In this document: positions 45,553-49,414 of the stretch, piece after piece | Numbering within the stretch: position 1 is the first letter of the stretch | Layout of the letters: each line of letters opens with the position of its first letter | DNA from: an uncultured Olsenella sp. | GTDB lineage: Bacteria > Actinomycetota > Coriobacteriia > Coriobacteriales > Atopobiaceae | Assembly: GCA_900314535.1 (NCBI GenBank) | Contig: OMVT01000003.1 | Span: forward strand, 1-64,000 | Direction of reading: 5' to 3' | DNA length: 64,000 bases | Notes under the pieces: model-generated | The model's database searches: none | What the model was told of the DNA's origin: nothing | The model's input: only the letters and a program-made list of their open reading frames with translations | Made by a program: the position numbers and the translations under genes

Positions 45553-46425
45553 CTATTTCAGTGCGTCCATCACGGTCGCAGAGGCGATGATTGCGGCAAT
45601 CGCATCAGGGATGAGGCCGTCGGGGAGATCCTGCTCCATCCTGCCGGCATCGCACATCTGCGCGAAGGAAGGATCGATTGGCAGCTGGCCCAAAAAGTCG
45701 AGGTCGTAGCGCTTTGCAGTCTCCTCGGCGCGGCTCGGGCCATACGGCTCGATCTTCTCGCCACAGTGCGGGCAGGTGAGATAGGCCATGTTCTCGACGA
45801 GGCCGAGGCACGGCACTTCCATCATCGATGCCATCTTCACGGCCTTGCCGACGACCATCTGGACGAGGTCCTGCGGCGAGGAGACGATGATGACACCCTC
45901 GATTGGGAGGGACTGGAAGACGGTGAGGGCTACGTCACCGGTTCCTGGAGGCATATCGACGAGCAGGAAGTCGAGGTTGCCCCAGTTCGTCTGGCCCCAG
46001 AACTGCTGGAGGGCGCCAGCGAGGATGGGTCCACGCCAGAGCACCGGATCATCGTTGTGCTCGAGCAGGAGGTTTGTCGACATGACCTTCATGCCGTTTG
46101 CGGTCTCGCAGGGGACCATGTTGTTTCCGTCAGCGGTGACCATATCGTCGGCGAGGCCGAACATCTTCGGGATCGAGGGGCCGGTGATATCGGCGTCGAG
46201 GATGCCGACAGAGGCACCGTGACGGGCAAGCTCGGTGGCCAGGATGCCGGTCACGAGCGACTTGCCGACGCCTCCCTTGCCGGAGATGACACCGATCACA
46301 TGCTTGATGTTCGAGTTCTCGTTGAGCGGGAAGATCTGGGGTCCCTGCTCGGCCTGGGGTGCATCTTCGTGTATCTGGCCCATCTCTTCGCGTATCTGCT
46401 GTTCCTCTTCAGGTGAAAGCGGCAT
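45553..46425 (-). CDS. mrp: Mrp/NBP35-family ATP-binding protein
   Basis: A P-loop ATPase thought to carry iron-sulfur clusters to apoproteins. In 290 residues it has the deviant Walker A GKGGVGKSLVTG (about residue 49), DADITGPSIPKMFG, VDMPPGTGD and the metal-site pair CPHCGE (CxxC), characteristic of ApbC/Mrp. The ATG at 46425 (MPLSPEEEQQ) was chosen for AGAAAGG upstream. It is the first gene of a three-gene operon and is divergent from the YhcH-like gene. Confidence 0.92.
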   Translation of the reverse strand: MPLSPEEEQQIREEMGQIHEDAPQAEQGPQIFPLNENSNIKHVIGVISGKGGVGKSLVTGILATELARHGASVGILDADITGPSIPKMFGLADDMVTADGNNMVPCETANGMKVMSTNLLLEHNDDPVLWRGPILAGALQQFWGQTNWGNLDFLLVDMPPGTGDVALTVFQSLPIEGVIIVSSPQDLVQMVVGKAVKMASMMEVPCLGLVENMAYLTCPHCGEKIEPYGPSRAEETAKRYDLDFLGQLPIDPSFAQMCDAGRMEQDLPDGLIPDAIAAIIASATVMDALK

Positions 46426-46562
46426 GGTGCGCCTTTCTCTTAGGTAAATGCTGTTTCCCACCTATCATACCCCGCACGGCCCTTTCATCATGCTCGCGGT
46501 GCCTGAAAAGCCGCCTTTGGGTGCATAATGGGAGGCAATGCATCCGTCTGAAGGGATTGAGC

Positions 46563-47021
46563 ATGCTTGCAGCAACGCTTGGCTATGTCGACCGCTACGA
46601 CTTCCAGAACGAGCGGTTCCAGAAGGCCTATGCCTTCCTGCGCCAGAACGACCTCAGCGCACTTCCGCTCGGGAAGCATGAGGTCGCAGGCGACGAGGTA
46701 TTCGCGAACGTCCAGGAATACGATACGGTGCCGGCAGCCCAGAAGCACTATGAGGCGCACAGGCGCTACTTCGATATCCAATACATCGTCTCGGGCGAGG
46801 AGGCCATTGCCGTTACGCCGGTCGAAGGCGTCAAGGCACTCCAGGAGTTCGACGAGGCATCCGACTTCTGCCTCTACGACGAGCCAAAGGCCTGCTCGTG
46901 GGTTCCGCTCCACGCAGGCGAGCTCATGATCTTGGGGCCCGAGGAGGCACACAAGCCAGGATGTGCCCTTGCAGGTCCCGAGCATGTACGCAAGGTCGTC
47001 GTGAAGGTTGCCGTCTCATAG
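46563..47021 (+). CDS. YhcH/YjgK/YiaL (TabA-like) family protein
   Basis: A 152-residue cupin-like protein. Characteristic stretches are HEVAGDEVFANVQEY, YEAHRRYFDIQYIVSGEE and MILGPEEAHKPGC, with the metal-binding His/Glu pattern of the family. Members act in sugar-acid metabolism or biofilm control (TabA), but the substrate here is unknown and no sugar genes are adjacent. The ATG at 46563 follows GAAGGGA. It stands alone between the mrp operon (divergent) and murT. Confidence 0.82.
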   Translation: MLAATLGYVDRYDFQNERFQKAYAFLRQNDLSALPLGKHEVAGDEVFANVQEYDTVPAAQKHYEAHRRYFDIQYIVSGEEAIAVTPVEGVKALQEFDEASDFCLYDEPKACSWVPLHAGELMILGPEEAHKPGCALAGPEHVRKVVVKVAVS

Positions 47022-47090
47022 CGGCCCCCCCGTAATAGAATCATGAATTAGCGAACAATCGTCTGCTTGTCCGTTGCCGCATGCCCAGTC

Positions 47091-47120
47091 TTTAGGTATT
47101 TTTATGGGTAACTGTAAAAT
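47091..47120 (+). promoter_or_regulatory. Candidate promoter for murT-gatD
   Basis: TTTAGG (47091-47096) and TAAAAT (47115-47120) are 18 bases apart in an AT-rich gap between the YhcH-like gene and murT. Only the -10 is a good match. Confidence 0.35.
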
Positions 47121-47195
47121 ATCTGAAAGATTGCAGTGTGATGCGGCCTTATCCAGAGATGAGGTTCGGTCTCACGTTTGGGCAAGGGGGTGTCA

Positions 47196-48593
47196 ATGGC
47201 GCAGGACAGCAAGCCGGCAGGCTTCAGGAGGGCGCTCGTGGCAGCGAAGCTCTCGGGCGTTGGGCTGCATGCCCTCCGCCGCGCCGGCACGAATTTCCCG
47301 GGCGAGGTGGCAAACCGCTTCTGCCCCGATTTCCTGGATGGCCTCGAGCCGACAGAGCGCTCCATCTTCGTGACGGGGTCGACAGGCAAGACCACGACGA
47401 CCAACCTGATTGCCGACCTGCTGGTGGCGATGGGGGAGGATCCAATCACGAACCGTGCCGGCTCCAACATCAACACCGGCATCGAGACGGCTTATCTCAG
47501 CGCTGCTGATCTCGACGGCAGGCCCCGCAAGAAGATCGCGGCGATCGAGATCGATGAGCGCTGGTGCCCGACGCTGCTTCCCGTCCTCAAGCCGACCGTG
47601 ATGGTCGTCACGAACCTGGGCCGCGACTCCTTCCACCGCAATGCGAATGTCGATGTCGTCTACCGGGTCCTCGACGAGGCGCTCAAGGGCGTATCCCGCC
47701 TGGTCCTGAACGGCGACGACCTGATTTCCCATACGCTTGCGAAGACGAACCAGGACCGCGTCTATTTCGGAATCGACCGCCTGCCGGAGGATGCCGACGA
47801 GCCCCGCACCATCATCAATGATTGCCTCTACTGCTCTGAATGCGGCGCCCGGCTCGTCTACGAGTTCAGCCATTACAACCATATCGGGCGGGCGCATTGC
47901 CCAAAGTGCAGTTTCCGCTCGCCAGCGCTCGACTACGAGATGCTGGACGTGGATTGGGAATGGGGCTTCTGTCACATCCGCGAGAACAGCCAGGAGGCCC
48001 AGCCGGTCTATGAATATCCGACCATCGGCCCCGACATCACTGATCTCTACAACGAGATCGCTGCGATAGCTGCCCTGCGCGAGCTGGGCTATCCTGCCGT
48101 GCAGATCGGCGCCGTCCTGCGTGGCGTCCGCACCACGAGCTCGCGCTACAAGGAGCGCCAGCTCGGCTCCAAGAAGGTCGTGAGCGTCCTCACGAAGGGG
48201 CAGAACCCGGTCGGGTGCTCCCGCTCCTTCGACCGCATCCGCAGCTGCCCGGGCACCAAGGCCGTGATCGTGATGCTCGACGATGACCGCTACATCAAGG
48301 TCTCGAGCGAATATACGGGCTGGTACTACGAGTGCGATTTCGAATATCTGTGCGATCCCTCGATCCGGCAGATTGCCCTCTACGGTGTGCGATCATATGA
48401 CCTGGAGCTGAGGCTCCTTCTGGCGGGAATCTCCTCGGACCAGCTCATCCTGGCAGAGAGTCCTGAGACGGCAGCCGCGGCGCTCGACCTCGACCAGGTC
48501 GATACGGTCTGCATCTCGTTCGACAACTACAATACCTATCTCTGCGAGCGTGCCACGCAGGCGCTTGAGGAGCGTCTTGGAGGTGGCCGATGA
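47196..48593 (+). CDS. murT: Lipid II isoglutaminyl synthase subunit MurT
   Basis: Together with GatD, MurT amidates the alpha-carboxyl of D-glutamate in lipid II. The 465-residue Mur-ligase-like protein has the ATP loop TGSTGKTTTTNLI (about residues 61-73), a four-cysteine zinc ribbon inserted in the central domain (CSECG near 213, CPKC near 236), and a C-terminal DUF1727-type domain. The ATG at 47196 follows AAGGGGG. Its TGA overlaps the gatD start (ATGA), the usual murT-gatD arrangement. The partner GatD here lacks its catalytic residues (see that entry), so the ammonia source is uncertain. Confidence 0.92.
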   Translation: MAQDSKPAGFRRALVAAKLSGVGLHALRRAGTNFPGEVANRFCPDFLDGLEPTERSIFVTGSTGKTTTTNLIADLLVAMGEDPITNRAGSNINTGIETAYLSAADLDGRPRKKIAAIEIDERWCPTLLPVLKPTVMVVTNLGRDSFHRNANVDVVYRVLDEALKGVSRLVLNGDDLISHTLAKTNQDRVYFGIDRLPEDADEPRTIINDCLYCSECGARLVYEFSHYNHIGRAHCPKCSFRSPALDYEMLDVDWEWGFCHIRENSQEAQPVYEYPTIGPDITDLYNEIAAIAALRELGYPAVQIGAVLRGVRTTSSRYKERQLGSKKVVSVLTKGQNPVGCSRSFDRIRSCPGTKAVIVMLDDDRYIKVSSEYTGWYYECDFEYLCDPSIRQIALYGVRSYDLELRLLLAGISSDQLILAESPETAAAALDLDQVDTVCISFDNYNTYLCERATQALEERLGGGR

Positions 48594-49369
48594 GCTGGGA
48601 GAGCGTGCTGGTGGATGGCCCTGCCACCGATGTGACCCCCCACCAGGGGGAAGGGCTCGACCTCGAGGTCCTCTACCCGGGCATCGCCGACCTTGGAGGC
48701 GATGCGGGCAACATCTTCTATCTCTGCGCCTGCCTGCCAGGAGCTACCCTCCATCAGACGCATCTGGGAGAGCGTCCGTACTTCATGGACCATCGCCCTG
48801 ACTTCGTCTTCCTCGGCAACATGGATGCCTCCAACCAGGAGCGCGCCGCGAAAGACCTCGCCCCCTGGAAGGAGCGGCTCGTGGAGCTCGCCGACGATGG
48901 GGTGCCCATCCTCTTCACGGGCGCCGCTGCGGAGATTCTGGGCGAGCATGTGGCGCTCGATCATGGGCGCGCCTTCGACGGACTCGGCATCTTCCCCTTC
49001 ACGACCACGATGCATCCGATCTCGGAGCGCATCAACGACTTCTTCGTCGGCACGGCGGATGGGATCGAGATCCTGGGCTGGAAGAGCCAGTTCACCGAAT
49101 CCTTCGGTGACAACACAAGGAGCTGCTTTGCCCGCGGCACCCGGGGCTGCGGCATCAACCTCGGGACCGATCTCGAGGGCTTCCGGCGTGGTGGTTTGGT
49201 GGCAACGTGGCTTCTGGGACCCTTCCTCGTTGCGAATCCTGTCTATACGGAGCACCTTATTGCTACCATGGGAGTGGCGCATCCCCAGCTGGCGTTCGAG
49301 AAGGTGGCACGGAAGGCCTTCGAGCGCCGCATCGTGGAACTGCGCGATACCAGCCGCATAGCTGACTAG
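48590..49369 (+). CDS. gatD: GatD-like glutamine amidotransferase, catalytic residues missing
   Basis: A 259-residue protein in the gatD position, with recognisable family blocks: ADLGGDAGN near the N-terminus, RPDFVFLGNMD, FDGLGIFPF and LLGPFLVANPVYTEHLI. From memory of S. aureus GatD, three catalytic blocks have changed. The nucleophile motif (TICGGYQ) reads FTGAAAE, with Gly111/Ala112 where Cys94 belongs. The motif with His189 (YLHGP) reads WLLGP, with Leu209. The ENHGGR loop reads WKSQFTESF. The protein therefore looks unable to hydrolyse glutamine, yet the gene is intact and coupled to murT. It may be structural or regulatory. Confidence 0.85.
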   Translation: MSWESVLVDGPATDVTPHQGEGLDLEVLYPGIADLGGDAGNIFYLCACLPGATLHQTHLGERPYFMDHRPDFVFLGNMDASNQERAAKDLAPWKERLVELADDGVPILFTGAAAEILGEHVALDHGRAFDGLGIFPFTTTMHPISERINDFFVGTADGIEILGWKSQFTESFGDNTRSCFARGTRGCGINLGTDLEGFRRGGLVATWLLGPFLVANPVYTEHLIATMGVAHPQLAFEKVARKAFERRIVELRDTSRIAD

Positions 49370-49414
49370 GAGGTGCTGCCGCCCTTCTGGCCGCTTCTGA
49401 GTTAGAGGGTTTGA

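Follow-up and report, generated by a model that had tools for sequence, protein, structure and literature searches.

MurT2-GatD2, a sister family of MurT-GatD with a predicted pseudo-glutaminase subunit

Several Gram-positive pathogens cannot do without D-Glu amidation, and MurT-GatD is a drug target. A coupled pair of murT- and gatD-like genes in an uncultured Olsenella sp. raises the question of what such a complex might do once the residues for glutamine hydrolysis have been replaced. The pair is located in a stretch of 64,000 nucleotides (contig OMVT01000003.1), hereafter referred to as the window, with the following features:

46333..49394, no strand assigned: segment of about 3.06 kb with a yhcH-type gene, murT2 and gatD2; missing from the same-genus genome G002
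47196..48593, forward strand: murT2, Mur-ligase-like subunit; ATG at 47196, stop at 48593 (sequence and alignment)
48590..49369, forward strand: gatD2, predicted pseudo-glutaminase subunit of 259 aa (sequence, PDB alignments, alignment and AlphaFold)
48920..48922, forward strand: codon 111, GGC for Gly, aligned with the nucleophile Cys, within FTGAAAE (sequence and alignment)
49214..49216, forward strand: codon 209, CTG for Leu, aligned with the catalytic His, within WLLGP (sequence and alignment)

MurT2-GatD2 is the name used here for the sister family of MurT-GatD to which this pair is assigned. A second, intact canonical MurT-GatD pair (CGGYQ / ENHGGR / HGP) is present on another contig of the same genome (G000:C72). 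Within the extra segment, positions 46567-47021 encode a YhcH/YjgK/YiaL (DUF386) protein, and the spacer at 47022-47195 has a low GC content (0.48).

Replaced catalytic residues in a conserved complex

The GatD2 protein of the window aligns with the GatD structures from S. aureus, S. pyogenes and S. pneumoniae (E values of 1e-8 to 1e-5), and its AlphaFold model (pLDDT 93.9) adopts the GatD fold, the nine best PDB matches all being GatD structures. Scores against the NCBIfam equivalogs are nevertheless far below the cut-offs, both for GatD2 (36 bits, cut-off 450; 25.7, cut-off 400) and for MurT2 (188 and 160, cut-off 800 in either case).

Residues were mapped using PDB alignments with these three structures together with 24 canonical GatDs from the same order. 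It had been claimed from the sequence alone that all three catalytic blocks are altered, and the alignments bear this out: the nucleophile Cys is replaced by G111 and the catalytic His by L209, while KSQFTE (165-170) takes the place of ENHGGR. The third oxyanion Gly is M78. The gene was also correctly read as intact, as the 259-aa frame is open and an ATGA overlap joins it to murT2. Neither the alignment nor the AlphaFold model reveals a substitute Cys-His pair or a displaced triad elsewhere in the protein. What had been described as a loss in the window's GatD is real, but it is common to a whole clade rather than confined to one gene. Cys and His are both missing from all 28 aligned GatD2 proteins of Coriobacteriales, and likewise from the 18 Bacillota copies inspected (16 plus two).

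Other residues are conserved in their place. The Cys, Gly, Ala and Gly found in 23-24 of 24 canonical GatDs correspond in GatD2 to G111 (27/28), M78 (28/28), F109 (27/28) and A113 (27/28), and the canonical Glu, His and Tyr (again 23-24/24) to K165, Q167 and W207 (27/28 each). In total, M78, F109, G111, A113, E115, K165, Q167, T169 and W207 are nearly fixed in Coriobacteriales, and the copies from Bacillota and f5 carry E/D115 in 18 of 19 cases and K/R165 in 17 of 19. Conservation is higher in the remodelled pocket than elsewhere in the protein (0.66 versus 1.42 bits; permutation p = 0.0008 for the switched positions), indicating that the catalytic positions, as far as conservation can tell, are re-set and not randomly lost. 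Ala or Gly replaces the channel-plugging Tyr of canonical GatD in 27 of the 28 aligned Coriobacteriales proteins, and Bacillota members retain Tyr/Phe there. Where measurable, dN/dS ranges from 0.03 to 0.30, indicative of purifying selection. Together with the open frames and the recurrence of these substitutions across dozens of independent genomes, single-contig ones included, this rules out a decayed gene, a sequencing error or an assembly artefact, leaving such explanations a negligible chance. Given that recurrence, the earlier comparison with HisH in the window is not required as a control against a reading error.

MurT2 residue numbers follow S. aureus and were fixed with PDB alignments. 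The 27 aligned MurT2 proteins retain GTNGKTT, N85, E108, N130, D134, R138, N267, R298, K315 and the zinc-ribbon Cys. In the window's copy, in which the P-loop reads GSTGKTTT, this motif, the Mg-binding Glu, the GxN acceptor motif and the Cys4 zinc ribbon are all present. At the sequence level, MurT2 is thus shown to retain its predicted ATP-, Mg- and acceptor-binding residues, and its ligase side probably works like that of canonical MurT-GatD. The side facing GatD differs: the triad Asp D349 is gone in 27 of 27 proteins (Tyr/Phe in 26, Asn in one; Tyr in the window), other residues stand at D137 and E141 of the interface loop, and the ammonia-channel loop is partly altered. A two-residue insertion separates K315 from N316 in the K-N-P motif (KGQNP in the window). 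The alignment reveals no new conserved Arg/Lys in MurT2 that would obviously be able to hold an amino acid carboxylate.

In S. aureus, C94, H189 and MurT D349 all matter in mutagenesis (PMC3266927, PMC5871853, PMC6113224); D349 completes the glutaminase triad, and D349N severely reduces activity (PMC6113224). Since the equivalents of all three residues are missing together, it is strongly supported that MurT2-GatD2 would be unable to hydrolyse glutamine.

The two subunits have evolved together. Coriobacteriales GatD2 and MurT2 are each monophyletic (support 1.0), their trees co-diverge (Mantel r 0.86), and Bacillota GatD2 proteins cluster with those of Coriobacteriales, apart from canonical GatD. 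Gene arrangements among relatives comprise murT2-gatD2, gatD2-murT2, natural fusions (in many genomes) and a tandem of two pairs. Sequence and model thus show GatD2 to be a putative pseudo-glutaminase in which the fold and the MurT2 partner have been retained.

Distribution and genomic context

About 31 of 299 sampled Coriobacteriales genomes carry a GatD2 relative, mostly at 35-45% identity, as do 17 of 295 genomes of one Bacillota order; none was found outside Coriobacteriales among 396 sampled Actinomycetota genomes. Carriers are gut and oral bacteria from two phyla, and some have more than one pair (two or three). In 28 of the 31 Coriobacteriales carriers, complete single-contig genomes included, searching for the MurT C-terminal family revealed no MurT other than MurT2. 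G013, whose two pairs are both dead, is the 29th carrier in which no canonical MurT-GatD was found. Likewise, none of the 17 Bacillota carriers yielded a high-scoring canonical MurT. Among the 31 Coriobacteriales carriers, only the window's genome and Collinsella vaginalis (G236) have both a canonical and a dead pair. A rough Fisher test of mutual exclusion gives 7e-16, a value to be taken as indicative rather than as a probability, as the genomes are related; the test counts three genomes as having both and, by match alone, 220 of 268 non-carriers as having a canonical-like match. Judged from gene content, the dead pair usually replaces the normal MurT-GatD.

Several unusual loci were noted. 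C. vaginalis carries a tandem of two murT2-gatD2 pairs (L060, G236:C3) alongside its canonical pair. Very divergent dead GatD/MurT pairs occur at L059:3830-6140 (G013:C136) and L199:8733-10906 (G799:C41); L199 is placed outside the main clade of GatD2, and in the divergent G013 pair MurT retains the triad Asp while its GatD lacks Cys and His. A third MurT type, with SSTN for GAN and KNTAG for KNPAG, was found with no GatD beside it (L138, L139 and L140; G046:C170, G003:C427 and G010:C9), each genome also encoding a higher-scoring MurT; it is possibly a GatD-free MurT. Six near-complete Coriobacteriales genomes (G012, G025, G033, G052, G063 and G071) gave no MurT_C match at all; MurT seems to be dispensable in parts of this order.

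Regarding the history of the window's segment, mrp directly adjoins uvrA in the same-genus genome G002, which lacks 46333-49394. The GC and GC3 of the segment match those of its flanks, and uvrA is 86% identical to its same-genus counterpart, so that the contig belongs to the genus. Gain of the segment in the window's genome, or its loss in the sister, would explain the coexistence of both pairs. Sister genome G001 was set aside, as no uvrA or MurT was found in it although it is rated 100% complete.

In Bacillota, a second alanine racemase gene directly precedes murT2-gatD2 in three loci (L183, L186 and L188), its stop overlapping the murT2 start in L188, and an alanine racemase lies beside the pair in a fourth genome (G775); all four genomes have another racemase elsewhere. 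In two genomes (loci L182 and L190), a diaminobutyrate transaminase directly follows the pair. These operons are few and probably reflect one event each, and neither gene was seen beside the pair in the Coriobacteriales loci. Recurrent neighbours in Coriobacteriales are pyruvate:ferredoxin oxidoreductase, carbamate kinase, a GT2-like gene and a two-component system, which look like shared synteny; beyond MurT2 itself, a conserved neighbourhood explaining function was not found there. The carbamate kinase gene lies upstream of murT2-gatD2 in L070 and L072 and downstream in L084 and L087, the side differing between Atopobium/Lancefieldella and Collinsella. None of the loci examined places a glutaminase gene with the pair. 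MurE is of the DNPR type (meso-DAP) in several Bacillota carriers, where a B-type cross-link is therefore not to be expected; this speaks against B-type cross-linking in all carriers.

Proposed function and alternatives

We propose that MurT2 would activate the carboxylate of a lipid-linked peptidoglycan precursor as an acyl phosphate, the target most likely being the D-Glu alpha-carboxyl, the site amidated by canonical MurT-GatD. A nucleophile not released from glutamine would then attack the acyl phosphate, an amino acid amine being likelier than free NH3. GatD2 would stay as a required structural or allosteric subunit, with the new conserved acid/base pair E/D115 and K/R165 in its former glutamine pocket. 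That MurT2-GatD2 is in this way a glutamine-independent family of D-Glu alpha-carboxyl ligases, with an amino acid preferred over NH3, is our leading interpretation, though we give it slightly less than an even chance. It would account for the retention of only one pair in most genomes, since the same carboxyl would be completed by either enzyme. An amino acid nucleophile is favoured because both the former glutamine pocket and the C-terminal domain of MurT are rebuilt and fixed, because some genomes have two or three pairs, and because a racemase or diaminobutyrate transaminase adjoins the pair in Bacillota. Mur ligases normally join amino acids. On the other hand, this view is weakened by the small number of such operons, with none seen in Coriobacteriales, and by the lack of a new conserved Arg/Lys for the carboxylate in MurT2. 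A more specific and tentative idea is that the pairs join lineage-specific amino acids to the D-Glu alpha-carboxyl, GatD2 acting as an amino acid sensor or docking subunit. If true, the family includes candidate ligases for type B-like walls, which are substituted with glycine or a diamino acid; to our knowledge, the genes for such ligases have not been assigned.

The sequence-only reading had offered free ammonia, a borrowed glutaminase or a job other than D-Glu amidation. The absence of glutamine use common to these options is strongly supported, and the options fall into an order: most weight goes to the same site with a different nucleophile, or to another job, and least to a borrowed glutaminase. 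Ammonia-dependent amidation, in which free NH3/NH4+ would yield D-isoglutamine and GatD2 would be indispensable as a structural or conducting subunit, is somewhat unlikely in our estimation but has experimental precedent. S. aureus MurT requires GatD even when NH3 is supplied, and together with GatD C94G it amidates lipid II with NH3 at pH 8.5 (PMC3266927, Table 2), so a dead GatD can serve as an obligate subunit and NH3 use is chemically possible. At pH 7.5, however, no such activity was seen (PMC3266927, Table 2). Replacement of the canonical pair and the loss of the channel Tyr in Coriobacteriales fit this model, as does carbamate kinase, which is able to release NH3 and adjoins the pair in a few loci, whereas the Tyr plug retained in Bacillota members does not. 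The wall of L. parvula, reported as A4alpha with L-Lys-D-Asp, with no extra amino acid on D-Glu mentioned and the state of the alpha-carboxyl not given (PMC3035223), is as such an ordinary A4alpha wall and fits NH3 better than an amino acid; G073, taken as L. parvula, has MurT2-GatD2 only. Nevertheless, glutaminase loss alone predicts neither the newly fixed pocket and the MurT C-terminal insertion nor several pairs per genome and the racemase and transaminase operons.

A substrate other than D-Glu, such as a D-Asp bridge residue or the DAP carboxyl, with GatD2 as a scaffold, appears improbable. Coexistence with the canonical pair in the window's genome and in C. vaginalis is compatible with two jobs, and bridge D-Asp is reported in the walls of L. 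parvula and O. uli, but near-exclusion with the canonical pair across two phyla, in organisms that differ in MurE motif, points to a site common to all these walls. Ammonia borrowed in trans from another glutaminase is highly improbable: the cell has other class I glutaminases, among them the canonical GatD of the window's genome, yet most carriers lack canonical GatD, MurT2 lacks the Asp that completes the glutaminase triad, and GatD2 and MurT2 are fused in many genomes. It ranks last because, in addition, the interface Asp and parts of the channel loop are changed and the loci examined hold no conserved glutaminase neighbour.

In carriers of MurT2-GatD2, the same wall site is thus probably completed without nitrogen from glutamine. 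This would bear on penicillin-binding protein recognition, host muropeptide sensing and annotation; a GatD match in Coriobacteriia is no proof of amidation. The family is also a concrete candidate for unassigned D-Glu ligases.

Comparison with known systems

In the available parts of two papers on MurT-GatD, the triad is called highly conserved (PMC6113224) and the operon universal in Actinobacteria (PMC6085368), with no mention of a dead form in these parts. A targeted literature search for a Cys-less GatD family yielded only the 2012 S. aureus paper, and we found no description of one.

Retention of a dead glutaminase domain has a parallel in vertebrate carbamoyl phosphate synthetase I (CPS I), which is ammonia-dependent. 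There, too, a class I glutaminase domain without Cys is kept beside the synthetase, and conservation and dN/dS indicate that MurT2-GatD2 retains its dead domain under selection. The synthetases are different, however, and NH3 is the established donor in CPS I, whereas that of MurT2-GatD2 is proposed here. The pseudomurein peptide ligases pMurC and pMurE (6vr7, 6vr8) are among the MurT matches and, as their names imply, join amino acids. They are archaeal, and MurT2 is clearly closer to MurT. We know of no GatD partner for either enzyme.

The closest relative is the lipid II isoglutaminyl synthase MurT-GatD (S. aureus 6gs2/6h5e, S. pneumoniae 6fqb, S. pyogenes 9sq9), which shares the two folds, the gene overlap or fusion, the zinc ribbon and the ATP, Mg and acceptor residues. 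Identity to the solved canonical chains is about 20-29%, and scores are far below the NCBIfam equivalog cut-offs. In place of the canonical composite triad of three residues, third oxyanion Gly and glutamine loop, MurT2-GatD2 has other conserved residues. By its predicted defining residues, MurT2-GatD2 is outside the glutamine-dependent MurT-GatD synthases, yet it is their closest sister.
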